Virus record (IMG/VR): IMGVR_UViG_3300033144_003902 | Location: 1 to 40,961 of that record | DNA: 40,961 nucleotides | DNA from: a virus | Strand: one strand, 5' to 3' | Shown: piece by piece, positions 7,505 through 33,976 of the stretch | How the letters are laid out: each line of letters begins with the position of its first letter | Position numbering within the stretch: the stretch's first letter is position 1 | Notes under the pieces: generated by a model | What the model was told of the DNA's origin: nothing | The model's database searches: none | The model's input: only the letters and a program-made list of their open reading frames with translations | Translations under genes and position numbers: made by a program

Positions 7505-8641
7505 CTACTCCTCGCCCCACAGCTCTTCGATAATGAGAATCGACTTCCTCCTCGCTTCGGCGGTGTCTACGATTTTCACTTTTCGCGTCGAGCCGTTGCC
7601 GTCGTTCTTGATAACCACCGTGAGTACGTCGCCTACCAGCGGAGTGATGAGGACCGGACCGAGTATGTAGTAGCCCTCGCTGGTCCCGCCCGGAGTGCCG
7701 GTTGCGCTGCTGTCCCTGGCGACCTCGAAATCCGTCTCGTCTCCCGTAGCGCCCATGTGGGCCGCGACCCAGTCGATGTGTATTACCTGTTGCATTTGCA
7801 GCCTGACCCAAAGGCGGAACGCCTTGATTCCGTCGAAGACGGCTCCACCGGGATTCATCCCGGCAGGCCAGTCCGTCGGCTCCCAGAATGAGTTGCTCCC
7901 GGAATTGGTGTTCTCCGTCGCGATGTATTTTTGCATCAGGTACGGGGAGTCGAGCAATGCCACGGAGCCAAGGAACGGCTCTACGAGAACCGGGTAGACG
8001 TCCTCTGCCATCGGCAGTTTTCCTGCGGTCAATCCCACGTCCTTGAGCGAGGCGCTGCCCAGGTCGCTGTTCTGCGGCAGCTCGTCGGTGGCACCGCCGA
8101 AGTCCTTGGTGGCCGCGGTCCCCAGCGGGAGGGCTTGCCCCAGCATCGTCGTGATGTCCTCGGCCAGAGGGATCGTCGCGCCCGCCGTGCCGAGCGAGAT
8201 GAACGCTGGGCGCTTCAGCGCGATGGCTGAATACTCGACCTTCACGGTGTTGGCCGACACGATCCCGGCGTCGAGTTCAACAGTGACGTCGTTGTTTCCA
8301 CCGCTATAACCCGACACCGTGATCCAGCCGAAGACCTCGCCGGCCACGTCGTCGGTGAACTTCACGCGCCGTTCCGCAAGTAGCTGCCCCGTGACGTCGC
8401 GGGGGCCAGCGATGCGCAGCTCGGTATCGCTCAGCCTGGTGAACACCCACGACTCGTCGGTGCCAGCGAAGGGCTCCACCCATGACGGGTCGTCCCAGAA
8501 GAGCTTGACGGCTGCCATGAAGGCGCGAATGAAGTTGTTGACCTGGTCGGAGGTCCAGCCTTCCTGCGGCCAGTCGGGAGGAACCCCCACTCCGTTGCCA
8601 GCGGCAGTCCTCGCGTACTCTTCCAGTGTCTTATCTGCCAT
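7505..8641 (-). CDS. Tail fibre or tail spike-base protein sharing the VNN N-terminal module
   Basis: A 378-residue protein whose ATG at 8641 lies inside the last codons of the giant gene (11-base overlap), with GGAG 7 bases upstream. Residues 20-50 (PPDWPQEGWTSDQVNNFIRAFMAAVKLFW) carry the same anchor-type module as the neighbouring 524-residue fibre. A beta-rich region follows (ELRIAGPRDV..VKFTDDV..GWITVSGYSGG), then Ala/Gly/Leu-rich repeats such as SLGTAGATIPLAED, PLGTAATKDFGG and SLKDVGLTAGKLPMAED. These look like triple-helical or beta-helical shaft repeats. The C-terminus (VRLQMQQVIHIDW to LTPLVGDVLTVVIKNDG) may be the tip. Probably an adsorption protein, or an adaptor between tail and the longer fibre. 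Confidence 0.75.
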   Translation of the reverse strand: MADKTLEEYARTAAGNGVGVPPDWPQEGWTSDQVNNFIRAFMAAVKLFWDDPSWVEPFAGTDESWVFTRLSDTELRIAGPRDVTGQLLAERRVKFTDDVAGEVFGWITVSGYSGGNNDVTVELDAGIVSANTVKVEYSAIALKRPAFISLGTAGATIPLAEDITTMLGQALPLGTAATKDFGGATDELPQNSDLGSASLKDVGLTAGKLPMAEDVYPVLVEPFLGSVALLDSPYLMQKYIATENTNSGSNSFWEPTDWPAGMNPGGAVFDGIKAFRLWVRLQMQQVIHIDWVAAHMGATGDETDFEVARDSSATGTPGGTSEGYYILGPVLITPLVGDVLTVVIKNDGNGSTRKVKIVDTAEARRKSILIIEELWGEE

Positions 8642-11600
8642 TCTCGCGCTCCTGCTGGGCTCTCACCTTCGGCTCGATTGACCTCACGCCGCGTTCGTAG
8701 AGTCGCTCGCGCTCGCGAAGCAGCTTCTCCTTCTCGTCCCGACCGCGCTCGGCAGACCATCCCTTCTTCTGCATCGTCTGTCGAAACTTCCTGATCTCCG
8801 CGTCCACTTTCCCGATCCGCTTGCTGGTGTTGCTCAGTCTCTTCCTGTGGCGGAAGACGACACCTTCCACGGTGTCGTCGTGCTCGCGCAACCCCTCGCG
8901 GTCTCGGTTCTCTGTCATGATGCCGCGGTCGACACGCGCCTTGTTGAGCCACTCCATATACTGGAACCAGTCACGCTGGTACTGCGTATTGATCCCCCGC
9001 GTGGGCTTGACGCGCCGCAGACCGGCTCGCTCACCAGGTCGCTTGGCCGGCACGTCGAAGAAAATGTCGTCCAGCGTGCCCAGGACGATGCCGGGGATCG
9101 TCGCCATGAACGACTGCATCACCGACTCCATCATGGCGGGGCTCTTCATCCAGTCGACTATCGGAGCGTCCTTCATTGCCTCGCCGTACGCCCGCATGGT
9201 CTCCGAGGTGGACGCCTTCGTCTGGTGCCGCGGTGAGGCCGCGCTCATTCTGTGTCCCAGCACCGGCCGGCCAGTGAATGGGTCTTTGTCCGCAAGGATC
9301 TTGAACGCCGCGTTGAACAGCGGCGGGATACCGATCCCGAAGTTGGTGGAGATCGAGAACAGCAGTGCCATGCCGTGGCTGAATGCGACGGGGTCCTCCG
9401 ACTCCAGCATGTTCTCCAGCCAGAGATCGCCGACGGCAGTGAACATGCCGATGTCGTACGGCCTGGGCATTCGGAACATCTCGTACTCGACTTCGCCGAC
9501 GCCGGTTCTGCCGACGGGAACGTAGAAGTAGTTGTAGAGCATCTTCTTTTGATGGTCCGTGTTCCGGTACTCCTCAATGCCCATGTTGTGGGCCGTGTTC
9601 CACATCGAGAAGCCCATCATCCCTATGATCTTGGCGACCGTCCTGGTCTTCATCGACTCGTCGGCCACACTCATCCTGAAGGCTTCGGCCAGGTCGTCGC
9701 GGCCTGCCAGCGCAGCCGCCCTGCTGAGACCCTGCCCAGGGCCCAGCGCTCGATAGAACCGGTCCCACGATGCGACTTGGGCACGGAGGAACGGAATGGC
9801 GATCATGAGCCCATGCGCCACGCCCGAGTAGCCTTGCTGCGAGAAGTCTACGGACGCCTCGCGGTAATACTTCCCCAGCTCGAATCCTTCCTTCCCGGCC
9901 CTCTCGGCCCTGATCGCCTCGCCCAGCCGCGGCCCCATCTCGGTGACGGCGACGGCCCTGTCGAGTGCGCGGAGTATGGATCCAGGCTCCGGTGTCATCC
10001 CGGCCAGCCTGTCGCCAGCGCTCACCCCCTTGTTGTGCCGCTGCGCGTACTTGGTGATCGCGCGACCACGTCGGTAGTCGATCCCCCTGGGCACCTTGGA
10101 CGACTTCCACGTCAGGAAGTTGGCCGTCTTCGACACGATGCTGCCCTCGCGGATAGCGCCACCGGTCCCAAACGCCATGACCCCGCGGCGCGGACTCAGC
10201 GACTGGTCAGACACGAGGCCGCCACCACCCAGGTTCGACACTGCCCGCTCGGCGATCTCTGAACGGAGGCCCGGAGTAACAAACTTCATCGCCTCGTAGT
10301 AGCCCTTGATCGTCGTCGTGAGCCAGTCCTTGGACTGCCGGGAAAGGGTGAAGTTCGTTATCGGGTCGCGAGCGAGCTGGCCGACGAGGAAGTCTGGACC
10401 ACGAGTGACCGACGTCTGCAGGATCCGCCGCTGCGCGTTGAAGAACTTCGCCAAGTTCCCGAGTTCCGGCTTGCGGAAGTGCTGCAGGGCCTCGACCAGC
10501 AATTTGTCGTGGACCTCGAAATACCGCGGTCTGACCTTCCCGTCGGGCGACTTCATGAACACGGCCATGACGTTGTTGTCGATCAGCGGACGTCCGCCAG
10601 CGAACATCGTAATCGCTTCCGGTAGCCACTCCTCGCGCATAAAGCTCTCGGGGATCTCTATCCCCGCCCGTTCGGCGTCCTCCTTAACGGCCTTCATGAT
10701 CGCTTTGCGGACGTCCTCGACGCGAGCCTCGTAGTTCTCGGAGCCTGGCTTGATCTCGCCGCCGAACAGGCCGCCGCCCTTCGTCTTCAGATCCCTGTCC
10801 TCCGCGACCAGCAGTTGCCTGGCCACCTTCACCTTGACGTGATTCTCGATGGCGGCGTGGATCATCCTCGCAGGCGTCTCGTAGAGCCTCGTAAGGGGGT
10901 CCTTGAACTGCCGGCCGCCACCCGTGAGCCTACGGATCGGGTTGCTGGCACTGATGGGCGTGTTCGGGGTGGTGCCAGACGCACCGCGCGAGCCCTGGCC
11001 TGGCGGCCCTTCCATGATGCGAGAGAAGCTGATGGCGTAGTCGGCGTAGGGCCACATGAGCCGCTGCTCGCGACTGATGAGCCCGAGGTCCTGCGCGAAG
11101 TCCGCGATGTGCTCGTTGAATTTGACCAGCGCCTTGTAGCCATCTTCGAAGTGCTGGTACTCCTCCTTCAGCGCCATCCCCTGCCGCATGGCTTCCTTCG
11201 ATATGCCAACGGTGGCGCCGCCGATCTTGCGGTCCAGGATTTGCCTAGCCACGTCCTTGACGGCGTCCATGCTGGCATCTTCACCGAGCTTCTCGCGGGC
11301 CGTCATGATCGCGTCGGCGTGCATCTGCTGGTACTGGTCCTCGCTCACCTCTCGGCCGCTAGGCCGGTCGCGTCGCGACGCCGCGCTGCCCACGGAGATC
11401 GGCCTCTCGGCGTTGGGCTCCTCGCCCCACGCGATCTTGTCCGGGTCGATCTGGTAGAGCTTGAGCACTCGCTCGACGGCCTCCTGGCGGGTCTCTCCGA
11501 ACTGCACTGCGGCGCGAGTGCCATTCATCAGGCGGGCGTACTTCGGTATGACCTCGGGGTCCCTTGCCACCGCTTCGGCATTCAGGAACTCCACGACGTC

Positions 11601-14600
11601 GATAGTCTCGATGCGCTCGGCGCTGGCGAGGGACCACGCCCTGCGTGCCTGGACGTACGAGAGAAACTTCGACAGCGTCGGCAGGCTCGGGCGTGTGTGG
11701 AGTGCAGCGGCGAGGATGCTCCTCAGAGACTCGCCTTCGAACACGATCCCCTTGCCAGTGAAGACCGGATGCCCCCTGTCGGTGATCTGCTCTGCCATCC
11801 ACGGGATTCCGCGAGACGCCCTGGCCATGAAGAACGGCCCGTCGTCCGAGAGGTAGCCGCGAGTGGACATTTCGAGCTTGGCAATGCCATGGAAGGCGTC
11901 CACGTACTTCGCGCGGAAGTTGTCGAGGCTGCCGTTGTAGGCCGCCCATATCGGGGCGTGCGTGGCGCCGGTCTGCGCGAGTATCGACGCCTCGCCCGTC
12001 TGCTCGAAGTAGTCGTGGGCGTCCCGCTCGACCTCCTTCCACATCTTCCGCTCGGCCTTCGGGCGCTGGCTGATCCATTCATCGAACGTGCGTGAGAAAT
12101 TCGGCGCCTTCTCGCGCACGTACGCCTGATTGCTGAAGTAGAGACGGACGGCTTCCGAGAACCCTTCCTCTGGCATGGACTGCCGGTAGCTGAGGTCGAT
12201 CATCTCCCTGATGTGGGCCGGCAGGCTGGGGTCCCTGAACGACTCCGGACCCAGCGACTCTATGCCGAACGCCCTGCCTAGCTCCGGGTGGTGGTCGAGG
12301 AGTTGGTGCCCCATCTCGTGGAAACCCACCTGGAAGTCCCACCAGTCCCGAACCTTCGTCCAGCCCGTCCCCTTCTGGTAGAAGCCAAGCATCTCTGCCG
12401 AGAACTGCGCGGCCTTCGCATTCATCCGACCGAAGTTCATGGTCCAGCCGCGGAACTTGAACGGCTTGAATATCACCTGGGCCCGCGTAATGACGCGAGG
12501 CGGGAGGTCGGCTGACACGCGGGTGCGCGTCTCTAGGTCGCGGAAGCCGGTGTAGTTTTGACCAGGGCGCTCGCCCTCGGCGTCCTCGGGGTCCTTGTCC
12601 CTCTCGACCCGCGCGCTCTTCTCGGCGTTTTCGGCGGCCTCGATCTTGCGCCGGACCTCGCCCAGGTCGTCAGTCTCGGCGCCGATCTCGTTGAACCGGT
12701 TGCGCCTTTCATTGCGCGAGGGCTCTGGCGTGATCGGTCGCTCGGACGCCTCGACACCGCTCCGGTCCCATTTCCAGCGCCCCTTCCCGGCCTGTTTGAT
12801 GACACCGGCCTCGGCCATGTCGGCGAGGGCTTCGCGTACCTGCTCTCGCTCTGCTGGCGTGGCGCGCTTCCCCTTCACGATCCCCATCTTGCGACCGAGC
12901 CCAGTGATCGTGAACCCCTTCGACCCGAAGCTCTGCGCAGCGGACGCTGCGCTCCACTCGTCGGTCTTCACGTCTTCGCGCTGCACCGGCCCCGCCTTCG
13001 GGCGGTCCCCCAGGTCCGGTCGGACGTCAGCAGAGAGGAACGCCTGATTGAACGCGCGCCCCATGTCGTCCCGCATATCGCCGCCGAAGAGGTCTTGGAC
13101 GCCAGACTCGTGCTCCTCCAGAATGTCCACTGCCCGCTTCCACTTGTGCCGGGCCAGCTTCAAAGGGTCGCCACCGGCCTGGTGCGGCGCGAGCGTCCTG
13201 TGGATGGCCCCCAGGCGCGCGTCGAGCACCGAAGGGGCGGTCTCTGGCATGTCGATGCCAGGCATGGAGGGCTCGCGCAGGAACATATTCAGGTCGGTGT
13301 CCTCGGGCCTCTCGCTCTGCCTGCGCATGATCTCGCTCTTCAATACCTGCTGCACCATGTCGCCGAAGAAGTTTGGGGACTTGCGCATCCCGCGGAGTAT
13401 CGACGGGGCCATTATGGCGACGCGGTTATACAGGTCGGGCAGCTCGGCGATCTCATCGACCAGGTGGTCGTCGCCAACCACTCTGTCGATGATGGCGTTG
13501 CGGAGAGCCTCGATGCCGTACGGCTTCAACCTGCCGTCTGTCTCGAAAAACACGTCGACAGAGTCGTCGGGGATGATCTTCCGGAGGGCCTCCCGCATGG
13601 CCTTCGATCCCATTACGGCCTGCTCGAGCTGGGTCCTGCCCCCCGTTGTGGTTGCGGGCTCCTGGTCGATCTTGTCGGCGATGTCCAGCAGGGCCTGCTC
13701 GAATTCCTGGGTGAACCTCGCGGAAAGTTCGCGCCCCACTTCCCGGTTGGTCATGTCGCGCCCGCCGCCGCCACGGTTCAGCGCGGACGAAAGGGCGCTC
13801 GCTTCCTTTGTCGACTGCGGGCGCTGATTGCGCAGGAGCTGGACGGGGACCGGCCGCGCCATGTGGTCGATCTCTACGGGGTCGATGCCGTACGCCTCTG
13901 CCCAGCGCTGCGCGCTCTCTTGGAGCTGCGCCTCGGTGCGGAGCTGGTTGTACTGGTCGCGACGATTCCCGCCCATGTTGAAGAACCACCAGTCGTTCGC
14001 GCCCGTCGCCTCGCGCAAGGCGAGGACGATAGAGGGGCCCTGGTTGGGGTTCCCGCTCGCCCGGTACGACTCGTTCTCCTGGTAGTTCTCCGGCTGGGCA
14101 CGCTTGATGGTGACTTCCAGCGAGCCCTCGTTGTAGCCGCTGCGAGTCTGCATCCACGGCGGGTAGGACTCGTTGGCCTCGATGTGCCGCCCGCCCTGGG
14201 TGGTCCAGGGGCCGCCGACCTCGACGTTGTGCGAGCTGGTGAGCAGCTCCTGCTCTACGAACCCCAGCTCAGTCTCGTACTTGACCCCGTCGTGGGTAAT
14301 GACGTTGCGCTTCCCGAGGGAGACCCAGCCCTCCGTGGCGTCGTTGACCGGCAGGGCGCTCTCGTCGCCCTTGGTCTGCTTTGGTCCCCAGAAGAACGCT
14401 CGGCCGCCGTGGCCGAAGCCGTTCAGGGCCAGCATGGTCCTGTGAAGCTCCTTCTCCAGCTCGTGCAACCGCTGCTCGGCGGCGACGTAGTCCACGTCCG
14501 TGATGTTCGGGGAGGCGCGCTTGATGTCCTCGATGACTTGCCACGGCTCGCGCTCGCCAGCGGCGGCCTTCCTGGCCTGTTCGGCGCCCTCGCCAGCCAA

Positions 14601-17309
14601 CTCCCTGGCCGCGCGGTCCCAGGAGTCCTCGAATTGATACCGCTCGGCCTCGGCACGGTCGCCAGCCCAATCTCCGCGCCCCTTTTCGACCACCACCCAC
14701 CCAGGCTCGCCGCGAACCTTGACGACCTTGGCGTCGGGAGTGAAGCCCTGGGCACCCTTCTTCAGCTTCGTGAGCGCCGCCTGGGCCGCGTTGCGCGTCT
14801 TGAATGGCTTGTCCTTCGCAGTCTTGTGGACAGTGCGGTCCAGCAGGACCGGCGCGCTGGGATCGACATCGGGAGGCGGCGCGGGCTCCGGGTCTCCCCG
14901 CGTAGCCTGGTCGGCCTCGGCCTGGTGCTCGTTCATCCTCTGCGTGATGGCCTCGGCGTGAGCTGCACCGTCCGGGTGAGCCTTCAGCACGTCGAGCGCC
15001 TGCAGGAGTTCGCGGGGACCGGAGGCGCCGATCCAGTCGCGAGGGAACGCAGCGACATGGGCCGCCTGCCTCTTCGCGTCCTTTGGGTAGCTCCTCGCCC
15101 ACTCGCCCACACTGGACCAGGCGAGCTTCGTCCCCGGCGTCTTCCGCGTAGTGCCGGGCAGGTCCGCCTCGGAATCCGGGCCCTCGACCTTTGTCCGCGT
15201 GGCCCCTTCCTCGCGTAGCTCGCGCGCTATGTCGCGCGCCTGCTCGGCGGTGGCGGCCTCCCTGTAGATCGGATGTTTCTTCCCCTTCTGGTGTCCGGTG
15301 ACGATGTAGGTGCTGTCGGAGCGCTCGTCTGCCTTTTCTGCCTTCGCTGCGTTTTCTGCTTGGAGCTTATGCCAGCGCACCGCGAGCTTGTCGATCTCGG
15401 GCCACGAGAGGTTCTTGTCCATCACGCCCGGCACGTTCTGGAGGAACTCGTCAATAGAGCGCCTCGTGGCGCCGCGCATCCCGCCCTTCTGTGTCTCGTT
15501 GATCCACGTCTCCAGGTGCTCGCGCTGCTGCGCGTCGAGAACGTCGTCCTTGGGCGGCGGGTCATGGAACTTGTCCAGCCCCTCGGCCTTCTCTCGTTCG
15601 ATCTGCTTGGCGACGGCGGCGTCGTTCGCTGCCTGGATCTCGGCTTCGGTGCGGGGCTTCCCTTCCGGCCGCGCGTCGGGAGGGGGATCCTCGGGCTTCT
15701 CGCGGACCCAGCGGCCAGTCTGCGGCCTGTCGGGGTCGTACTCAAAGCGATCCCACCGCCCCCAGCCCTCGCCGCCAGCTCGTAGCCGTCGCCGCTCCTT
15801 CGGCGGGGGCGGGCGCATCTGCTTCATCTTCCTGGCGATCTCGCTGCGAGCGGCCTCCTGTAGGTCCAGGAGCTTCGTGAATTCCTTGAACTTGCGAGAC
15901 TGCTCGCCCGTGTGGGAGCCGTGCCAGCCGAAGTAGCCGCCGATGATGAGTTCGGCAATCGCCTTGTCCAGGGTCACTTCGCCGCGCATCATCGCCGCCC
16001 AGACCGGGCCGCCGAACATGGCAGCGCCAGCACCAGTGCCCAGCGTCCGCGGGAGCGCGGCAGAGAGTCGGAGCCCGAGCTGGAGCACGCCACCATGAAC
16101 AGCGCCCGCCCACTCGTCCTCGCTGGCGCCCTTGGCGCGCAGCCCTTCGAAGACGGCCAGGGTCGTGTGGCCGGCGCCCTTGATCTTGGTCGCAGACAGG
16201 AGGCGACCGGTGCCCTTGAGGGGCCCAGCAATGGTCAGCACGGCGCTCTCGACACCCTGGACCAAGGAGAGCATCGGCCGCATCCACTTGGGCGCGTTGG
16301 CGATGGCCTCCGCGTTGTCCTCGCCGTAGGTCGCGCCCACGTCCTCCATGTAGCGGGCGGCGGCGTCCATGCCGTCGTTGATGATCTCGACGTCCGAGCG
16401 CGGATCCGGCGCCCCTGCACGCTGGCCAGGGCGGTGCAGGGCAGTCGCGCTCGCGATGGTGGAGAGGAGGTGAGTGTCGTCCAGGCCCGTGAGCTCGACG
16501 GCCTCGTGGAACGCCTTGCGGACAGGCCATGTCAGCGTTTCGAGGCTCTGTGAGAGCGTGGGGCGCTGGAACGGATCGCCCATGTCCGCGTAGGCGACAG
16601 GCTTCCCGCGGCCACCCATGGAGGTGGCCACGCGGGGCTGAATGGTCTCCCACTCGTCCGGATCGGTGGGCGGGTCGGCCACCTCTTCGCTGTTGAAGGC
16701 CGATAGCAGACCCTGCGCTTCCCTGATGGTCGTGGCGGCAACGTCCACCGCAGGACCACCGAAAAACTTCTTGGTCGATTCCGTAGCAACAGCGTTCCGG
16801 GCACCGATCTCTGTCAGGAGGTTGCGGCGCCAACCGGCGACCCTTGACGCCGAGGGGATACCAAACGGCTCATCGCTGAGGTCTACGATCTTGGCGGGGT
16901 GGTAGTCGCCAACGGCCTGCGGGGAGCTGCCGATGAAGTCGCTCGGCTTCTCGTACTGGTCGATCCAGGCCCCTACCGTCTCGTCGTCGAACTTCTCGAA
17001 GGTCCCTGTGAATTGCTTGCGCAGCAGGCCGATCTGGACGTCGCGCCCAGCCCCCTGGAAGCCGGGGTGGTTGACGACCTGGTGGACCTCATGGAGGTCC
17101 GGGGGCTCGCCGCCCTCCGTGGGGTTCTCGTAGTAGCGGCGAGGAATGGCTGGGACGAACGGGCGTTTGGGCCCGCCGCCACCACCGATCTCGGGGCGAA
17201 CCCAGCCGCGGTCACTGTCTCCGCGGTTCCCAGGCGTCGAGAAGGCGTCGGGCTCGGGCGTCTCCGTGAAGAACCCAACCGCGGGGAGCGGCCGACGGCG
17301 GGGAGCCAC
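8631..17309 (-). CDS. Giant polyvalent internal virion protein (DdrB/ParB-like, winged-helix, HEMGH metallopeptidase, LPD-type C-terminus)
   Basis: A single open frame of 2892 residues from GTG 17309 (GAGG 9 bases upstream, 2 bases after the preceding stop). Visible parts, in order: basic Pro/Gly-rich N-terminus; two hydrophobic segments at about 350-460; charged linkers with KGKKHP and TAEQARDIARELREEG at about 700; a degenerate DdrB/ParB-like domain at about 1020-1390 (LTSSHN, NESYPPWMQTR, FFETDGRLKPYGIEALRNAI); a winged-helix-like segment at 1450-1512; a zinc metallopeptidase motif HEMGH at 1664-1668 with candidate third ligands Glu1715 or Glu1719 (PEEGFSEAVRLYF); and a long C-terminal region (about 2130-2700) with patterns of phage large-polyvalent-protein-associated domains. 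It lies between internal virion and fibre genes. By the polyvalent-protein model it is packaged and ejected with the DNA to act early in the cell; that is inference. Confidence 0.8.
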   Translation of the reverse strand: MAPRRRPLPAVGFFTETPEPDAFSTPGNRGDSDRGWVRPEIGGGGGPKRPFVPAIPRRYYENPTEGGEPPDLHEVHQVVNHPGFQGAGRDVQIGLLRKQFTGTFEKFDDETVGAWIDQYEKPSDFIGSSPQAVGDYHPAKIVDLSDEPFGIPSASRVAGWRRNLLTEIGARNAVATESTKKFFGGPAVDVAATTIREAQGLLSAFNSEEVADPPTDPDEWETIQPRVATSMGGRGKPVAYADMGDPFQRPTLSQSLETLTWPVRKAFHEAVELTGLDDTHLLSTIASATALHRPGQRAGAPDPRSDVEIINDGMDAAARYMEDVGATYGEDNAEAIANAPKWMRPMLSLVQGVESAVLTIAGPLKGTGRLLSATKIKGAGHTTLAVFEGLRAKGASEDEWAGAVHGGVLQLGLRLSAALPRTLGTGAGAAMFGGPVWAAMMRGEVTLDKAIAELIIGGYFGWHGSHTGEQSRKFKEFTKLLDLQEAARSEIARKMKQMRPPPPKERRRLRAGGEGWGRWDRFEYDPDRPQTGRWVREKPEDPPPDARPEGKPRTEAEIQAANDAAVAKQIEREKAEGLDKFHDPPPKDDVLDAQQREHLETWINETQKGGMRGATRRSIDEFLQNVPGVMDKNLSWPEIDKLAVRWHKLQAENAAKAEKADERSDSTYIVTGHQKGKKHPIYREAATAEQARDIARELREEGATRTKVEGPDSEADLPGTTRKTPGTKLAWSSVGEWARSYPKDAKRQAAHVAAFPRDWIGASGPRELLQALDVLKAHPDGAAHAEAITQRMNEHQAEADQATRGDPEPAPPPDVDPSAPVLLDRTVHKTAKDKPFKTRNAAQAALTKLKKGAQGFTPDAKVVKVRGEPGWVVVEKGRGDWAGDRAEAERYQFEDSWDRAARELAGEGAEQARKAAAGEREPWQVIEDIKRASPNITDVDYVAAEQRLHELEKELHRTMLALNGFGHGGRAFFWGPKQTKGDESALPVNDATEGWVSLGKRNVITHDGVKYETELGFVEQELLTSSHNVEVGGPWTTQGGRHIEANESYPPWMQTRSGYNEGSLEVTIKRAQPENYQENESYRASGNPNQGPSIVLALREATGANDWWFFNMGGNRRDQYNQLRTEAQLQESAQRWAEAYGIDPVEIDHMARPVPVQLLRNQRPQSTKEASALSSALNRGGGGRDMTNREVGRELSARFTQEFEQALLDIADKIDQEPATTTGGRTQLEQAVMGSKAMREALRKIIPDDSVDVFFETDGRLKPYGIEALRNAIIDRVVGDDHLVDEIAELPDLYNRVAIMAPSILRGMRKSPNFFGDMVQQVLKSEIMRRQSERPEDTDLNMFLREPSMPGIDMPETAPSVLDARLGAIHRTLAPHQAGGDPLKLARHKWKRAVDILEEHESGVQDLFGGDMRDDMGRAFNQAFLSADVRPDLGDRPKAGPVQREDVKTDEWSAASAAQSFGSKGFTITGLGRKMGIVKGKRATPAEREQVREALADMAEAGVIKQAGKGRWKWDRSGVEASERPITPEPSRNERRNRFNEIGAETDDLGEVRRKIEAAENAEKSARVERDKDPEDAEGERPGQNYTGFRDLETRTRVSADLPPRVITRAQVIFKPFKFRGWTMNFGRMNAKAAQFSAEMLGFYQKGTGWTKVRDWWDFQVGFHEMGHQLLDHHPELGRAFGIESLGPESFRDPSLPAHIREMIDLSYRQSMPEEGFSEAVRLYFSNQAYVREKAPNFSRTFDEWISQRPKAERKMWKEVERDAHDYFEQTGEASILAQTGATHAPIWAAYNGSLDNFRAKYVDAFHGIAKLEMSTRGYLSDDGPFFMARASRGIPWMAEQITDRGHPVFTGKGIVFEGESLRSILAAALHTRPSLPTLSKFLSYVQARRAWSLASAERIETIDVVEFLNAEAVARDPEVIPKYARLMNGTRAAVQFGETRQEAVERVLKLYQIDPDKIAWGEEPNAERPISVGSAASRRDRPSGREVSEDQYQQMHADAIMTAREKLGEDASMDAVKDVARQILDRKIGGATVGISKEAMRQGMALKEEYQHFEDGYKALVKFNEHIADFAQDLGLISREQRLMWPYADYAISFSRIMEGPPGQGSRGASGTTPNTPISASNPIRRLTGGGRQFKDPLTRLYETPARMIHAAIENHVKVKVARQLLVAEDRDLKTKGGGLFGGEIKPGSENYEARVEDVRKAIMKAVKEDAERAGIEIPESFMREEWLPEAITMFAGGRPLIDNNVMAVFMKSPDGKVRPRYFEVHDKLLVEALQHFRKPELGNLAKFFNAQRRILQTSVTRGPDFLVGQLARDPITNFTLSRQSKDWLTTTIKGYYEAMKFVTPGLRSEIAERAVSNLGGGGLVSDQSLSPRRGVMAFGTGGAIREGSIVSKTANFLTWKSSKVPRGIDYRRGRAITKYAQRHNKGVSAGDRLAGMTPEPGSILRALDRAVAVTEMGPRLGEAIRAERAGKEGFELGKYYREASVDFSQQGYSGVAHGLMIAIPFLRAQVASWDRFYRALGPGQGLSRAAALAGRDDLAEAFRMSVADESMKTRTVAKIIGMMGFSMWNTAHNMGIEEYRNTDHQKKMLYNYFYVPVGRTGVGEVEYEMFRMPRPYDIGMFTAVGDLWLENMLESEDPVAFSHGMALLFSISTNFGIGIPPLFNAAFKILADKDPFTGRPVLGHRMSAASPRHQTKASTSETMRAYGEAMKDAPIVDWMKSPAMMESVMQSFMATIPGIVLGTLDDIFFDVPAKRPGERAGLRRVKPTRGINTQYQRDWFQYMEWLNKARVDRGIMTENRDREGLREHDDTVEGVVFRHRKRLSNTSKRIGKVDAEIRKFRQTMQKKGWSAERGRDEKEKLLRERERLYERGVRSIEPKVRAQQERENGR

Positions 17310-25036: not shown

Positions 25037-26002
25037 TTACGAGTCGTTGACGTCGAAGATCGCCCCGGAGCCCTTCTCCTGGCAGGCTTCCAGGCTGTAC
25101 TCGACGTACAGAGCACGCTTGGTCGAGTCGCCCGTCTCTGCGAGCTTCTTCTGGAAGAACGCGCGCAGGTAGCAGACCTTCCAGAGGCTCAGGTCGAGGA
25201 CGAACACCGTCCGCTCCTGCTGGAAGCGGTTCGGCACGATCCGAACGTCGCCGAAGTCCGAAGCGTAGACGTCGATGGCCGCCGTCAGCTTCTTGTCCTC
25301 GGATGCGTCCGTGCGAGTGGCGTTCCCCGTGAATCCGGAGATCACCTGTTTGTTGAACGGCCCGCACATGACGAAGCTGGGCTCGCCGCCGACTGCCCAA
25401 GAGTCCCGCAGGACGCTCTTCAGCATCGACTCCTTCAGCGCGCGGTCGCCAGCCTCCGACCGAGCCGACCACACGCCACCAGCGGAGAAAGTCCCGTTGG
25501 TGGAGCCCGAGCCCTGGCTCGTGTTCGTCTGGATGTTCGTCTCGAGCGGGCCGAGCTTCCGGGCCGTCGGGGTCCCCGACTCGCCGTCTCCGGGGTCTGA
25601 AGCCCGGTTGCGAGTGAGGACCGCCTCCATGTCGCGCTTCAGCTCCTTGGCCTTCTTCGCGATCTGGTAGCCAGTCTCCTTGCCGCGGCCGGCGGTGTTG
25701 ACCGAATCCGACGTGCCGGAAACGATCACCGTCTTGGAGCTGATCTGGCTGATGTTCTGCAGCTTGATCGTCGCGGTGAAGCTGGGGGACGGAGCATCGT
25801 CGCCTTCGATCTGCGCGTTGTTTTCGTCCGCGGCGTCGAGGTCGTCCGTCTGCCATTCATGGAGCGTGGCGGTGCATGTACCCCGCTTGGCGTTCGTCAT
25901 GAACGGGGTCTGGATCGGAGAGATGTCATGGATCACATTCGCGAGGTCCTCGCGAATACCTATTTGGTCGTACGTCTCCACGGTTCCGGTGGGGATCGCC
26001 AT
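25037..26002 (-). CDS. Major capsid protein, SU10 / DUF5309 type
   Basis: A 321-residue protein; ATG 26002 shares its A with the scaffold TAA, with GGAGG about 10 bases upstream. The N-terminal block ETYDQIGIREDLANVIHDISPIQTPFMTNAKRG followed by ATLHEWQTDDL is the hallmark of the SU10-like capsid family (DUF5309), an HK97-fold shell protein. Later patterns also fit: KTVIVSGTSDSVN, ELKRDMEAVLTRN, SWAVGGEPSFVMCGPFNKQVISGF, DVYASDFGDVRIVPNRFQQERTVFVLDLSLWKVCYLRAF. It forms the icosahedral shell. The following intergenic hairpin probably helps keep its transcript level high. Confidence 0.9.
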   Translation of the reverse strand: MAIPTGTVETYDQIGIREDLANVIHDISPIQTPFMTNAKRGTCTATLHEWQTDDLDAADENNAQIEGDDAPSPSFTATIKLQNISQISSKTVIVSGTSDSVNTAGRGKETGYQIAKKAKELKRDMEAVLTRNRASDPGDGESGTPTARKLGPLETNIQTNTSQGSGSTNGTFSAGGVWSARSEAGDRALKESMLKSVLRDSWAVGGEPSFVMCGPFNKQVISGFTGNATRTDASEDKKLTAAIDVYASDFGDVRIVPNRFQQERTVFVLDLSLWKVCYLRAFFQKKLAETGDSTKRALYVEYSLEACQEKGSGAIFDVNDS

Positions 26003-27192
26003 TACAGTAAACCCTCCAGCGCCACGGCGGCGTCTTCGACCGACCCTGTGCGCTTGAGCCTGGCTTTCGCTGAGGCCCTTCTCTTTGCCGCCGCCGAACG
26101 AGGCTCCGCGCGAGCGGCGCCCCCTACACTCCTGCTGAGCGCGACCTTCTGCTTCGCGCCTCGAATTCGCTCCAAAGCCTTCGGCCTCGCGCCCTTGGCC
26201 TTGTGTCCGTGCATCGCATCCCAGATGACCATTACGTGTCGATGGTCGATGATGAGGTCGATCTCGCTATCCTCGAATCCGCGCACGTCCTTCAAGTAGG
26301 TCTTCATTTCGGACATTGCAGAGGTGGCGCGTTCCTGGTTCCGCCACGCAGGCATGACGCGCTGCAGCTTCACCATTTCGGCGGACGCCTGAGACTTCAG
26401 CCGAGAGTTGGTGTCCTCGTCCCTGGCGTCGGCATGGTTGCCGAGCTGGTCAAGCGCTTGGCGAATCTTCTCGTCGCGCGCCAGCCAGTTCTCCTTGCGA
26501 CGGAGAAACTCGTCCGGATCGAGGTCCCGGCGCATCGTGTCCCAATCCGGCTGCGCGCCCTGGACCTCCTTTATCAGTACCTGCACCAGGCCGGTGGCCC
26601 GATTCAGCTCTGCGTCGAGAGACGTCATGCGATCTGAGTGACTGGAGTCGAGTTCCAATCGGCGCGCGTCGAACTGCTCTGCCGCGGCAGTGGCGGCGGG
26701 CTGGTTCGCGTACTCGGTCAGCACAGTGGCGAGCGGGACGGCCACGCCGTCGGGGCCTTCGACCGTGACGTTGGCCGCGAGCTGGTCGACGTCGACTTCG
26801 AATTGCCCGGCCAGCTCGGCAAGCGTGAGAGGATCCCCCTCGCCCGGCTGCTCGTCTGGCGAAGGGGCTTCCCCCTCTATCCCCTCTGCGCTGACTACTT
26901 CCTCGTCGCCCTCTTCGACAACGGGCTCTTCGCCCTCGGCGGCGGCATCGACCGGCTCTTCGCCCTCCAGCTCTTCGTCGAGATCGGCGTCGGTAACGGG
27001 CTCTACTGCCGCCGCGGCATTCTTCGCGGCCTTCGGCCTGGGAGGCGTGGCCACGATGCGGCCTTGGCCGTCCCTGATCGGTGCGAGAGGAGCCTCTACC
27101 TCGCCGCCTGCGTCATCGAACCCTACTATGGCGTCGATTCGCGCAATCGGGTCACTGGGAAGCTCAACCTGCCCTGTCGGTATCCCCGCCAC
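26002..27192 (-). CDS. Scaffolding protein candidate
   Basis: A 396-residue protein from GTG 27192 (AAGG 9 bases upstream; 29-base overlap with the previous gene). The N-terminal third is very acidic (ELEGEEPVDAAAEGEEPVVE). The middle is helical and charged (FDARRLELDSSHSDRMTSLDAELNRATGLV). The C-terminal part has PDWDTMRRDLDPDEFLRRKENWLARDEKI, a phrase typical of scaffold-like proteins of SU10/podovirus capsids. It ends in a basic, Ala-rich tail (KRRASAKARLKRTGSVEDAAVAL) that may bind the capsid protein. The gene lies immediately before the capsid gene, the usual scaffold position. There is no protease motif. Confidence 0.72.
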   Translation of the reverse strand: MAGIPTGQVELPSDPIARIDAIVGFDDAGGEVEAPLAPIRDGQGRIVATPPRPKAAKNAAAAVEPVTDADLDEELEGEEPVDAAAEGEEPVVEEGDEEVVSAEGIEGEAPSPDEQPGEGDPLTLAELAGQFEVDVDQLAANVTVEGPDGVAVPLATVLTEYANQPAATAAAEQFDARRLELDSSHSDRMTSLDAELNRATGLVQVLIKEVQGAQPDWDTMRRDLDPDEFLRRKENWLARDEKIRQALDQLGNHADARDEDTNSRLKSQASAEMVKLQRVMPAWRNQERATSAMSEMKTYLKDVRGFEDSEIDLIIDHRHVMVIWDAMHGHKAKGARPKALERIRGAKQKVALSRSVGGAARAEPRSAAAKRRASAKARLKRTGSVEDAAVALEGLL

Positions 27193-27490
27193 CGGCCAGT
27201 ACCTTGGCCGCCATCACCTCCGCGACTTTCCCTGATTCCACTGTTCTTTGCAACCATAGTTGGAATGTTTGGCCGGCGTGCCACTCGTGCCAGATCCGCT
27301 CGCGCACCGAAGTCTCGTCCGGAGCGGTGCGACACCAGTTGCGAAAACAGCCCTCGCCATGTGCCGCGAGGGCCTTCTGGATCAGGGGATTGTCCAACAG
27401 GGTCTGGGCCTTATGTGCGTTGGCCTTCGACCTGTCGACGCGCTCAGCGATGGCCTCTTCCTGCTCCTGCAGCGATCCGGGCCCGTTCAC
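27164..27490 (-). CDS. Small conserved phage protein upstream of scaffold
   Basis: A 108-residue protein; GTG 27490 overlaps the previous stop (GTGA). It is helical and contains LLDNPLIQKALAAHGEGCFRNWCRTAPDETSVRERIWHEWHAGQTFQLWLQRTVESGK. The pattern W......D...R..IW...HA...F...L...V.SGK occurs in small phage proteins placed between portal and capsid genes. Function is unknown; a packaging or assembly accessory is likely from position. Its last 29 bases overlap the scaffold start. Confidence 0.68.
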   Translation of the reverse strand: MNGPGSLQEQEEAIAERVDRSKANAHKAQTLLDNPLIQKALAAHGEGCFRNWCRTAPDETSVRERIWHEWHAGQTFQLWLQRTVESGKVAEVMAAKVLAGGGDTDRAG

Positions 27491-27837
27491 TGCTCGTCGT
27501 CGTCCTCGACCCCGTCTTCGAAGAGGTCGGTGACGTCGTCCTCGACCTGGTCGGAGTCCTCGGTGAGGATTTCGTCCAACTCGTCGGCGTCATCGAGCGC
27601 CGGGTGGACTGCCTCGGGCTCGTCGGCGTCCTCGGCCTGCGTGACCGGCGTGGCCTCTTCGTAGGCGTGCAGCAGCCGCTTGATGTCGGACGTCAGGTAG
27701 CTGCCCTGCTTCTCGAGGCAGGCCCTTATCCCGGAGATCAACTCCTCGGCACGGCCGATCTGGGCCGCCAGGGCAGCCTTCTCCTCGGCGCACTTCTTCA
27801 GCTTGTTGTCGAGAGTTTCCACCGTTTCGTCTGTCAT
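27487..27837 (-). CDS. Acidic coiled-coil protein downstream of portal
   Basis: A 116-residue protein; ATG 27837 overlaps the portal stop (ATGA). The N-terminal half is a coiled coil (ETLDNKLKKCAEEKAALAAQIGRAEELISGIRACLEK). The C-terminal half is extremely acidic (DEILTEDSDQVEDDVTDLFEDGVEDDDEQ). It could bind the portal or the basic scaffold tail during assembly, or mimic DNA; none of these is shown. It contains no membrane span. Confidence 0.68.
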   Translation of the reverse strand: MTDETVETLDNKLKKCAEEKAALAAQIGRAEELISGIRACLEKQGSYLTSDIKRLLHAYEEATPVTQAEDADEPEAVHPALDDADELDEILTEDSDQVEDDVTDLFEDGVEDDDEQ

Positions 27838-29975
27838 GCCGCCTTCTCCTCGCCTGAATCGTCGTCTTGGGCCTTGGCCTCTGCTGTCTCCAGTGCCATG
27901 TCTGCCTTCTCGATGTCGGCCCGGATCTTCATCTCTGCGATGCGCTCTTGCGACGCCAGCTTGTCACGGTCCAGGGCGGCCTGCAACTCAAGTGCGTACC
28001 TCTTGATCTCGCCGTCCTGCTGAATCCGTGCGGCGTCCAGTTGAATTTTCTGGCCCTCAAGGTCGTGGCGCCGCTGGTCGCTGACCTCGTCCTGTTTGAT
28101 CTTCTCCATTTCGGGGTTGGGCGCGGGCTCCGGGTCCTGGCCCTTGGGGTCCTTGAAGAAGAAACCTTCGGCCTTGAAGCCGAGCGCGAGCTGGAGTTCG
28201 TGGGCGGCGTTGTAGAACTGGTCGGGGCTCACCACCAGGCCACCCAACCCGGCAGCCTGGGCGCCTTTCTGCGCTTCCATGATCGCGGTGAGGGACTGTA
28301 CGCGCTGCTGGGTCTGCCCCATGCCGAGACCGACCTCGATGTCGAGGTCCCACTCGGGGTCCCACGCTTCTGAGTCGATGGGGGTCCAGCTCCCGCGGAG
28401 CTTCACCACCTGGTCCTTAACGGGGTGCTCGATCATCAGCCGCAATAGGATCCTAAACAGCCGCTTGAACCCGCCCTCCGCGAAGACCCTGGCGATCAGC
28501 TCGATACGCTGATTGGCGGCCTCCATGATGGCGCCGATACCGAAGGCCGTCTTATTGAGGGTGCTCGCGTCGGTCCCCTGGTTGTACCTGGTGATGCCGG
28601 TGCGCTGCTCCTTAACGCCCTCCAGGTACTCCATCATCGCGAACGCGCTGGGCGGGAGCTGCGGAGTGTCGAGCTGTCGAACCATGCCCGGCTGCTGGAC
28701 GCGAACGATCCCGCCAGGCAGAGAGGACAAGAGGTCGTCTATTTCGACTTCGCCCTCCACTACCTCATAGCGGCCGTTGTTCTGCAGGTAGACGTTGTCG
28801 AGCATTTGCCGAAGGAGAGTGGACCGGATGAACTGGAGATCCTTCACCTGGTCGGCCGGGCAGTTGCCAGTCCACTTGTGAGGGTTCGGAATCGGGGTGA
28901 TGTCCGCGAAGGGACTGTGGCTCGCGTACTCGTTGATGAGGATCGTCTGAGAGGAGTCGCCAGCCGACAGGACGTGGCGCAACTCGGTGAAGCCGTCGCC
29001 ATCGTAGTCGACTCGCATCCAGCAGTCGTTGACCCACACTTCGCGCGCCACTGCGTCGGCCCGGTCGCCGGTCATCGACGGATACGAGTCGTCGTCACCC
29101 CAGCGCTCACTTCGGCCAGCATCGAATTCGATGTAGTCGTCTGACGGCACGGCCAGGGCGACCTCTTCGTCAATTCCCAGGGCGATCAGGTCGGAAACGC
29201 GCATCCGGACCCGGTGGCAAGCGAACCCGGTTTCGTCGTTGAGGAACACCTCGCGCCGGCCGATCAGGAATTCTTCGGGAGGGATGGCCAGGACCCGTAG
29301 CCGCTTCCGAGTCACGGTCCTACGAATCTGCACATCGAACGTATCGGCCTGCAGTATCTGGCCGGTCTCTGGGTCCTCGATGGGGATCGAGTTGCCCGTG
29401 GGCTCGATGGTCTCTTCCATCATCTCGGTGTCTTGGTCGTCAAGGATCGTCGCGAGTTCGACCTCTGTGACCCCGGAGAGTTCCACGAATTCTGGCGTGG
29501 TCCGCTCCTCGTAGTACGCCTTCGCCGTGCTGTTCTTCTCCAGGAGCGCCGTCTTCATCCAGTCGTACGTGACGCGGAACCCGTCCTCTTGCTGGAGGAA
29601 CACCTCGTTCATGTAGTCGCTGGCCTGTTTGGCCTTCTCTACGTCGTCGGCGCTGCTGGGCTTGAAGCGGACCACCTGGTCGCCGCCCAGGAACATGCGG
29701 ACGAGGGACGGCATGATCCATTCAATCGTGTCTTGAATGTCGGTGAGCTGCGCCTGCGAGCGGCCTACCTGCTCGTTCCCGAACGGGCGACCGTGGTACA
29801 TCGAGAGGTTCTCTCGGCGCTGGTCCGACAGCTCGGTGCCGGTGTTGCTGATTGAATCCCAAATCTCGGTGTGGATGAGATTGGCGAGAGTGTCGTCGTC
29901 AAGGGGGACGATCTCGTGCGACCAGTTGGCGTCGCGGACTCCGGTCTCTACGGGGCTAGGCGCGATCTCTGCCAC
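27834..29975 (-). CDS. Portal protein, P22/SU10 type
   Basis: A 713-residue protein from GTG 29975. The N-terminus has RRENLSMYHGRPFGNEQVGRSQAQLTDIQDTIEWIMPSLVRMFLGG, then VRFKP...DVEKAKQASDYMNEVF, the classic opening of P22-like and SU10 portals. The core contains FLIGRREVFLNDETGFACHRVRM, DGFTELRHVLSAGD, INEYASHSPFADITPIPNPHKWTGNCPADQVKDLQ and YNQGTDASTLNKTAFGIGAIMEAANQRIELIARVFAEGG. The last ~110 residues form a long charged coiled coil (crown or barrel). It builds the 12-fold DNA channel at one vertex and contacts terminase and adaptor. Confidence 0.92.
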   Translation of the reverse strand: MAEIAPSPVETGVRDANWSHEIVPLDDDTLANLIHTEIWDSISNTGTELSDQRRENLSMYHGRPFGNEQVGRSQAQLTDIQDTIEWIMPSLVRMFLGGDQVVRFKPSSADDVEKAKQASDYMNEVFLQQEDGFRVTYDWMKTALLEKNSTAKAYYEERTTPEFVELSGVTEVELATILDDQDTEMMEETIEPTGNSIPIEDPETGQILQADTFDVQIRRTVTRKRLRVLAIPPEEFLIGRREVFLNDETGFACHRVRMRVSDLIALGIDEEVALAVPSDDYIEFDAGRSERWGDDDSYPSMTGDRADAVAREVWVNDCWMRVDYDGDGFTELRHVLSAGDSSQTILINEYASHSPFADITPIPNPHKWTGNCPADQVKDLQFIRSTLLRQMLDNVYLQNNGRYEVVEGEVEIDDLLSSLPGGIVRVQQPGMVRQLDTPQLPPSAFAMMEYLEGVKEQRTGITRYNQGTDASTLNKTAFGIGAIMEAANQRIELIARVFAEGGFKRLFRILLRLMIEHPVKDQVVKLRGSWTPIDSEAWDPEWDLDIEVGLGMGQTQQRVQSLTAIMEAQKGAQAAGLGGLVVSPDQFYNAAHELQLALGFKAEGFFFKDPKGQDPEPAPNPEMEKIKQDEVSDQRRHDLEGQKIQLDAARIQQDGEIKRYALELQAALDRDKLASQERIAEMKIRADIEKADMALETAEAKAQDDDSGEEKAA

Positions 29976-31549: not shown

Positions 31550-31915
31550 TCAGGTCCCGCCGTCCTGGTGCGCCCCGATGACGAGCGTCACGCCGATGTC
31601 GCCAGCCGTGGCCCCGCCATCCGTCTCGATCTCGATGGCCTGGGCAGCCGAGAATTGCGCGAGCGCGGTAGGAGTGATGGTGTCAATGTCGCCGATGGCA
31701 GAAGTTGCCGTGTCGATGGTCGCGCCACCGCCCGTGACGGCGGTCCCGCCGATCTTCATGGCGAGTACGACGTCGGCAACGGTCAGGGCGACGTTTGTGG
31801 TCACGAACGCCTTGAGAATTCGCCCTCGCCTGCCGATGTGAACGTACCGCTGCGAGGCGCCACCGGTCGCGGGGACTGCGACGTGGATGAGTTGAAAGGC
31901 TCCTGCTCCGAGCAT
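31550..31915 (-). CDS. Small beta-rich structural protein between the terminase genes
   Basis: A 121-residue protein; AGGAGA lies 6 bases before ATG 31915. It reads GAGAFQLIHVAVPATGGASQRYVHIGRRGRILKAFVTTNVALTVADVVLAMKIGGTAVTGGGATIDT, with Ala/Thr/Gly/Val-rich strands to the end (AIEIETDGGATAGDIGVTLVIGAH). This composition is typical of phage decoration or capsid-surface proteins. A capsid decoration gene between terminase genes is unusual, but it is common in this composition class. Function inferred. Confidence 0.68.
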   Translation of the reverse strand: MLGAGAFQLIHVAVPATGGASQRYVHIGRRGRILKAFVTTNVALTVADVVLAMKIGGTAVTGGGATIDTATSAIGDIDTITPTALAQFSAAQAIEIETDGGATAGDIGVTLVIGAHQDGGT

Positions 31916-32638: not shown

Positions 32639-32668
32639 GGCCCCAGGAGAGTCCAGGCTCCTGGGGCC
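32639..32668 (-). terminator. Strong terminator hairpin of the accessory operon
   Basis: GGCCCCAGGAG (32639-32649) and CTCCTGGGGCC (32658-32668) form a perfect 11-bp stem with an 8-base loop, about 100 bases downstream of the Acb2-like gene stop. In the leftward direction it is followed by a moderately T-rich tail (CTTCGTCGTTCTG). It probably stops accessory-operon transcription before the late promoter. Confidence 0.75.
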
Positions 32669-32766: not shown

Positions 32767-33303
32767 TTAGCTCGGCTCCTCGGCTGGCCGCAACTCGTTG
32801 CCCTCCGCAGGCATGGGCCTGGGCTCGTTCCGGGCGATGCTGGCATTCGCCCACATGATCGACTCTTCCAGCTTGGTGAGGGCCAGCGACCTTTCGCGCG
32901 AGTCGGGGCAGCTCCACTCCATCCGTTCGGCCAGGACGAGACCTTGGGTGCGGAGCCCCAAGTAGCGGTCCTGCTGGTCGCCGTGGGGCGCGTGGTACGT
33001 GAACCGGTTGACCAGGTCGTTGACCGGGTTGACCCTCCTGATGCCAGCTACGGGGGTCAGCGAGTACCCCTCTTCGAACGCTTCTGCGGGCGAGAACGAG
33101 GCGTAGCCGTCCTTGTAGACGACGTAGTAGCCGCCAGCCTGCGGGTCGTGCTTCTCGACCCAATCGAGGTCTACGACAATCGGAGCGAATGGCGGCGTGA
33201 CGTGCAGCTCCACAACTCCGGGCTCGCGCTGGGCGACCTCCACGATCTTCAGGGCGCTGACTGTCTTGTGGCACTCGTAGCTGGGCATTCTCGAATCGGG
33301 CAT
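32767..33303 (-). CDS. Two-part protein with C-terminal Acb2/Tad1-type hairpin domain (anti-CBASS/anti-Thoeris candidate)
   Basis: A 178-residue protein; AGGAG is 5 bases before ATG 33303. Residues 1-90 form a domain found at the front of phage proteins (MPSYECHKTVSALKI, then KHDPQAGGYYVVYKDGYASFSPAEAFEEGY). Residues 98-160 read FTYHAPHGDQ, RYLGLRTQGLVLAERMEWSCPDSRERSLALTKLEE and SIMWANASIARNE. This matches the Acb2/Tad1 hairpin family, whose members bind cyclic di-/trinucleotides (Acb2) or cyclic ADP-ribose isomers (Tad1) and so block CBASS or Thoeris signalling. That domain is known in phages; activity here is inferred from sequence. It is the last gene of the accessory operon and is followed by a strong terminator. 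Confidence 0.82.
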   Translation of the reverse strand: MPDSRMPSYECHKTVSALKIVEVAQREPGVVELHVTPPFAPIVVDLDWVEKHDPQAGGYYVVYKDGYASFSPAEAFEEGYSLTPVAGIRRVNPVNDLVNRFTYHAPHGDQQDRYLGLRTQGLVLAERMEWSCPDSRERSLALTKLEESIMWANASIARNEPRPMPAEGNELRPAEEPS

Positions 33304-33315
33304 TGGCTCTCCTTG

Positions 33316-33630
33316 TTAGTTCAGTCGGTGGGCTTCGTCTTCTTCCGTCTTTGATGCGACCCACTCTGCCGTCTCGGCGAGGAAGTCGAGCTGCATGTCT
33401 GCGTTGACGTTCGTCATGAACTTCGCCGACGGCGCAGGCTCGGGCCCGCCAGCCGCGATGGCGTCCAGTTGCTCCTGGGACAGCTCCCATATCTTCGCCA
33501 GGAAGAACCAGCCGACAGTGACACCGCCGCCCGAGGTCTTCATGATCTGGGCGATCTGCGCCGCGGCCTCGTTGATGATGTCCTCGATGCGCTCGTGCGC
33601 GGGGCGTATCAGGTTCCCGTCTTCGGCCAC
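33316..33630 (-). CDS. Accessory protein of unknown function, 104 aa
   Basis: GTG 33630 follows the RyR gene stop by one base. The product is mostly helical: RIEDIINEAAAQIAQIMKTSGG, WFFLAKIWELSQEQLDAIAAGG, FMTNVNADMQLDFLAETAEWVASKTEEDEAHRL. No membrane span or known motif. It lies between the RyR-domain protein and the Acb2-like protein, so a shared role in host interaction is possible. It might be a partner or regulator of either. Confidence 0.65.
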   Translation of the reverse strand: MAEDGNLIRPAHERIEDIINEAAAQIAQIMKTSGGGVTVGWFFLAKIWELSQEQLDAIAAGGPEPAPSAKFMTNVNADMQLDFLAETAEWVASKTEEDEAHRLN

Positions 33631-33631
33631 C

Positions 33632-33976
33632 TCAGAGTCCCTGTATCGCCAGCACCACTGCGCGGAACAGCGCGTCCTTCTTCTGTTGCTCTGCGGGCAG
33701 CTCGGCGAACGGCACTATGCACGGGTGAGTCTTTGCCTCGGCGTCCTTCTCTTCGCCGTAAGTCCACCCGCCCTTCAGCTTGAAGTACATCCATGATTCG
33801 TGACTCGCAGACGCGGGGGCGCCGGGGTCGTTCAACACGAACTGGACGCCCTCTACCGCGCTCTCCCGCTGCCACTCGGCCGACTCGCTCCAGGGGCGCT
33901 GGCTGTGGTCGCCAAGCCCCTCGCAGTACGCGCGGTTAGCCTCGTGACACACCTTGGCGATGGCTTCGTTTTCCAT
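33632..33976 (-). CDS. RyR-domain protein
   Basis: A 114-residue protein made almost entirely of one RyR-type domain. AAGGAGG is 5 bases before ATG 33976. Diagnostic phrases in order: IAKVCHEANRAYCEGLGDHSQRPW, WQRESAVEGVQFVLNDPGA, SHESWM, GGWTYGEEKD, KTHPCIVPFAELPAEQQKKDALFRAVV. This matches prokaryotic and phage RyR domains (PF02026 family, named after ryanodine receptors), which have been proposed to bind nucleotide-derived ligands in conflict systems. Ligand binding is inferred. Its neighbour two genes downstream is Acb2-like, so both may sense or neutralise host signal nucleotides. Confidence 0.85.
   Translation of the reverse strand: MENEAIAKVCHEANRAYCEGLGDHSQRPWSESAEWQRESAVEGVQFVLNDPGAPASASHESWMYFKLKGGWTYGEEKDAEAKTHPCIVPFAELPAEQQKKDALFRAVVLAIQGL

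Follow-up and report, generated by a model that had tools for sequence, protein, structure and literature searches.

Hairpin sponges and the OB-folds of Dec proteins are both already known. In the literature that we examined, the sponges Acb2, Tad1, Tad2 and Acb4 are treated as stand-alone proteins. Such sponges act as oligomers (PMC12043709). For Dec, the published element order is an OB-fold of b0-b1-b2-b3-aOB-b4-b5-a2, the OB domain of which binds the capsid (PMC6449081). Here we describe a phage gene in which a Dec-type OB-fold module stands ahead of an Acb2/Tad1-type helical hairpin. A partial literature search found no description of this combination, nor of the sharing of one module across Acb2/hairpin, Tad2 and Tad5 domains. 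The gene was found in a window of 40,961 bp, the whole stretch of DNA that was analysed, whose source is a podovirus-like phage with genes for an SU10-type portal, a scaffold and a major head protein.

Architecture and setting of the fusion gene

The gene spans 32767..33303 on the minus strand and encodes a protein of 178 aa, whose division into a Dec-type OB-fold module and an Acb2/Tad1 hairpin is based on the open reading frame, Pfam and a structural model. The initial annotation had placed an open reading frame at exactly these positions, which is borne out, and its strand is the minus strand. The frame is intact, running from an ATG at 33303 to a stop codon at 32769-32767, and is preceded by the sequence AAGGAG, a probable ribosome-binding site (33309..33314, minus strand). 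Both motifs that had been quoted for the protein, KHDPQAGGYYVVYKDGYASFSPAEAFEEGY and CPDSRERSLALTKLEESIMWANASIAR, are found in it. All on the minus strand, the coding sequence comprises the N-terminal Dec-type OB-fold domain (residues 7-82; 33058..33285), identified through PHROG 11049/872 and through profile and fold matches to PDB 6e3c; a linker (residues 83-95; 33019..33057) that is modelled with low confidence; the Acb2/Tad1-type helical hairpin (residues 96-160; 32824..33018), identified by PF24729; and a C-terminal tail (residues 161-178; 32770..32823). PADLOC and NCBIfam searches gave zero matches.

A second contig, L076, encodes the same two-domain fusion as a protein of 171 aa that is 59% identical to the window protein. 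The two proteins have ELRPA in common in the tail, and the linker is unconserved between them. Purifying selection is seen on both domains, the dN/dS ratio being 0.42 in the N-domain and 0.41 in the hairpin. In both the window and L076, the fusion gene is followed by a series of a TerS-like gene, a gene of ~120 aa and TerL. Because L076 has the same two domains ahead of this same gene series, the fusion cannot be put down to the loss of a stop codon. A split form also occurs, on contig L198, where the N-domain and the hairpin are encoded by separate overlapping genes.

A candidate terminator stands between the fusion gene and the terminase genes downstream of it, and the head genes are located at 25037-29975. 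This candidate transcription-unit end is an 11-bp G+C-rich RNA stem-loop of -25 kcal/mol between the fusion and terminase genes (32639..32668, minus strand), and a further terminator-like site is present at 32559-32545. The strong stem-loop and the second site after the fusion gene suggest that the anti-signalling genes close one transcription unit while the terminase genes open another. The ~120-aa protein encoded between the TerS-like gene and TerL (31550-31915, minus strand) is rich in Gly, Ala and Thr, is kept in L076 and may be a real decoration or head-fibre protein. A very large open reading frame of 2892 aa (8631-17309, minus strand) probably encodes a giant virion protein.

The Dec-type OB module and its partners

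The N-terminal part had been described as a phage domain distinct from the hairpin and with no assigned job. It is indeed a separate domain, and it can now be classified, by both profile and fold, as a Dec-type OB-fold. When modelled alone with AlphaFold, it adopts a confident b0-b1-b2-b3-a-b4-b5-a topology (pLDDT 86) that agrees with the full-length model, with strands at residues 8-10, 14-27, 30-35 and 42-45, a helix at 46-52, strands at 59-63 and 68-71, and a helix at 73-79. Phage L Dec (PDB 6e3c) was the only significant match both in a profile search of solved structures (E=1.1e-4) and in a fold search with the AlphaFold model of the domain (E=1.2e-4, TM 0.70). The OB-fold with its b0 and a2 additions and the sequence relation to phage L Dec are thus both present. 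The domain matches PHROG 11049/872, families without function, and has no significant Pfam match. An identity with the beta-domain of Tad1 was rejected, as profile and fold searches both give Dec, not Tad1. The 'AVQW' domain of LASTA, considered as another relative, received no sequence support in what was a weak test with a single sequence.

Kinship to Dec raises the possibility of a capsid-tethered sponge, in which the OB module binds the phage capsid protein and displays the hairpin, perhaps since capsid proteins trigger Thoeris or CBASS. The only characterised relative of the module, and the sole one solved, is phage L Dec, whose OB domain binds capsids (PMC6449081), and in PdC23 a stand-alone relative directly follows a major capsid gene. 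However, the window protein has kept none of the five residues at which capsid contact was tested by mutation in Dec (K30, Y31, Y49, Y71 and E73 correspond to A24, Q25, V43, D65 and Y67), in a comparison taken from the profile alignment and subject to the caveat that contacts may differ with another capsid. In addition, Y63, D65, Y67 and S69 are strongly conserved in the N-module family and absent from Dec. The kinship with Dec is therefore a matter of fold and common descent and carries no implication of capsid binding. Genomic context also argues against a tether: the fusion genes of JessA, the lastaviruses and P1-like phages are located in early or accessory regions, a survey of the neighbours of stand-alone N genes found no enriched functional theme, the neighbours being mixed and not capsid genes, and the candidate terminator splits the fusion gene of the window from the terminase/head operon. 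We consider a capsid tether decidedly unlikely.

Across phages, the module mostly exists by itself. Partner-neutral scans of viral contigs returned 106 non-redundant loci, in 102 of which the module has no recognised partner in the same open reading frame, whereas it is fused to a recognised domain in just 4; fusion is therefore its minority architecture. Altogether, 30 fusion clusters were seen, counted as N-domain clusters at about 70% identity, with the majority of fusion clusters and partner counts coming from scans whose query included a partner. Searches with the N-domain only, which are unbiased toward any partner, already gave fusions to Acb2, Tad2, Tad5 and crAss001_48. The module precedes Acb2 in the Caulobacter phages JessA and RapA, Tad2 in the P1-like Ro157c2YLVW, RCS47 and SJ46 as well as in SopranoGao, and crAss001_48 in LASTA and ZX1, while in Vibrio MAR10 it follows Tad5 and stands ahead of a weak MazG match. 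In numerous contigs, Tad2 and crAss001_48 carry a related but shorter module of about 48 aa. Since the N-domain recurrently partners several different anti-signalling domains, the fusion in the window is not a one-off.

That the module stays constant while its partners are exchanged is indicated most clearly by three Klebsiella lastaviruses (L060, L064 and L067). Their genes share 93-100% identity over the initial 240-300 nt and past this stretch continue into unrelated sequence, which encodes Tad2, crAss001_48, or a third domain followed by crAss001_48. The site is at the same locus, adjoins regulators and appears to be one of payload swapping. The sharing of the module among unrelated alarm-blocking domains points to a common, swappable building block of phage counter-defence.

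Several further architectures were observed. In the Vibrio mardecaviruses L065, L348 and L349, a 394-aa protein annotated only as a MazG-like pyrophosphatase contains the Dec-type module together with Tad5 and a region that matches MazG weakly. The crAss001_48 domain (PF21825) recurs as a fusion partner of the N-module or of Tad2 (L019, L035, L067, L289, L322-L327, L183, L272) and is a candidate unrecognised anti-signalling domain; profile comparison and a PDB search gave no support for kinship with the Acb2 hairpin. A gp49/Sf6 gp66-like domain, identified by eye, is in frame with the N-module or N-Tad2 in L183, L339 and L340, and some of these cases may be neighbouring genes read together. 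In L002, L014, L061, L068, L182, L231 and L319, the N-module is followed by C-termini of 60-130 aa with no recognised family, which are possible partners. Occurring on Acb2, the hairpin, Tad2 and Tad5, the common module provides a sequence handle by which more counter-defence proteins could be found through their partner, with crAss001_48, the gp49-like domain and several of the unnamed C-termini as candidates.

Could the OB module be a mere assembly or stability part that aids a hairpin hexamer? Sponges do act as oligomers (PMC12043709), and the hairpin of Tad1 is likewise preceded by a beta-domain. Yet the hairpin occurs without the OB module in many phages (at least 537 relatives in one scan), the same module is also carried by the tetramer-type Tad2, the module mostly exists alone, and the linker is flexible and unconserved. 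An assembly role is therefore unlikely in our estimation.

The hairpin and a neighbouring RyR-domain gene

The C-terminal part had been attributed to the Acb2/Tad1 hairpin family, with a profile search against that family proposed as a check. This search gave a significant, full-length match: PF24729 (Acb2_Tad1_hairpin) aligns to residues 102-158 over model positions 1-58 of 58, with E=1.2e-14 and 54.7 bits against a score cut-off of 27 bits. Judged from sequence, the match is far beyond chance, and the family assignment is further supported by a profile match to 'Acb2 homolog 43'. In that comparison, a profile of 46 hairpins was searched against solved structures and matched 'Acb2 homolog 43' (PDB 9ptq) with E=1.3e-8 over most of the hairpin, Tad1 with E=2.6e-4 over the second helix alone, and T4 Acb2 weakly (E=0.26). 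In the AlphaFold model, the hairpin consists of two long antiparallel helices, residues 108-131 and 136-159, at a pLDDT of about 95. Acb2 and Tad1 were absent among the matches listed by Foldseek for the full model, a search in which short helical hairpins rarely reach significance.

R136, T143, E146 and W151 are invariant in the alignment of the 46 hairpins. T143 aligns with T68 of T4 Acb2 and the R-x6-T pattern is kept, in an ungapped pairing of 44-61 to 65-82 with a one-residue chain offset inferred from the position of Y8. The substitution T68M in T4 Acb2 has been reported to lower binding (PMC12657230). F82 of T4 Acb2 stacks on dinucleotides (PMC12657218); in the alignment no counterpart was found in the window hairpin, where the position falls at about A157, and the Acb2 Y8 segment was not recognisable. 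The pocket for dinucleotides may therefore be lacking or altered. These observations, and the abundance of small hairpin proteins among phages, speak for an alternative in which the hairpin is no sponge but a structural helical element whose ligand binding has been lost. Against such a reading stand the four invariant residues, a solved homologous hairpin of this type that is deposited as an Acb2 homolog, the membership of several partner domains of the OB module in known or named anti-signalling families, and a RyDEP-type gene nearby. A purely structural hairpin thus seems to us improbable.

This nearby gene, one gene upstream of the fusion gene, encodes an RyR-domain protein of the RyDEP family (114 aa; 33632..33976, minus strand; PF02026 E=2.1e-11; PDB 35tm). 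Its H, W, H and D residues occur at the exact spacing of 0/+3/+25/+42 that corresponds to H75, W78, H100 and D117 of RyDEP, which bind and cut 2'- and 3'cADPR, and the majority of tested phage homologues are reported to bind without cutting (PMC13232231). The RyR neighbour is accordingly a second anti-Thoeris candidate. RyR relatives are rare (285 of 50,697 phage records), which makes coincidence unlikely, on an informal judgement, as the explanation for the presence of one beside a sponge-type gene. Between the two genes lies an orphan of 104 aa (33316..33630, minus strand) with zero matches in Pfam, PHROGs and the 50,697 phage records.

Proposed function and comparison with known systems

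Taken together, the analysis suggests that the fusion protein is probably a sponge for cyclic nucleotides or cADPR-type molecules with a flexibly tethered, autonomous OB module, and that the RyR neighbour would add a second signal block. The C-terminal hairpins would assemble into an oligomer, as in Acb2 and Tad1, and sequester the alarm molecules on which CBASS, Thoeris or similar systems rely, which would keep effectors inactive. The RyR neighbour is predicted to act on cADPR signals by binding or cutting them, and the locus would thereby block two signal classes. The least certain part of this mechanism is the role of the OB module, which might act as an autonomous binding module, either widening the range of the sponge through a second ligand or recruiting it to a partner from the phage or the host. 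An autonomous binding role is favoured over assembly or a capsid tether because the module is mostly stand-alone, is attached through a free linker and is common to sponges of differing structure. A broader and more doubtful proposal, possible though short of probable, is that the Dec-type OB is a general swappable carrier of anti-signalling domains that itself binds an immune signal or a trigger and in many phages acts alone too, with crAss001_48 as an unrecognised anti-signalling domain.

Compared with Dec (PDB 6e3c), the N-domain has an identical order of OB-fold elements, but Dec runs on into a trimeric beta-helix spike and its capsid contacts are lost in the window protein. With Acb2 (T4 Vs.4, PaMx33 gp24, PaP2 p26; 9ptq), the protein shares the PF24729 two-helix hairpin, R-x6-T and the equivalence of T143 to T4 T68. 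Acb2, in contrast, consists of the hairpin alone apart from a short N-terminal helix, whereas the window protein has the OB module ahead, and the Y8/F82 dinucleotide residues of Acb2 are unrecognisable in it. Tad1 (cbTad1, PDB 7uav/8kbe) also has a beta-domain ahead of its hairpin, so the domain order is not unusual in itself, and the helix-2 motif SRExxxALTxxEExxMW is present in both proteins; the PDB sequence match of the window protein to Tad1 is confined to helix 2. Tad1 differs in its length of about 125 aa versus 178 aa and in its antiparallel beta-domain, which neither the sequence nor the fold search with the N-domain found. The P1-like N-Tad2 proteins ('DUF2829 domain-containing protein') and SopranoGao gp55 place the same module before a signal-sponge domain, but there the sponge is Tad2 (PF11195) and not a hairpin. 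The nearest named full-length architecture is that of Caulobacter JessA gp16 and RapA gp16, in which the same module precedes a PF24729 hairpin; their hairpins belong to the Acb2 type and begin with GYKP..EK, as in T4 Acb2, and their genes lie in a replication region.
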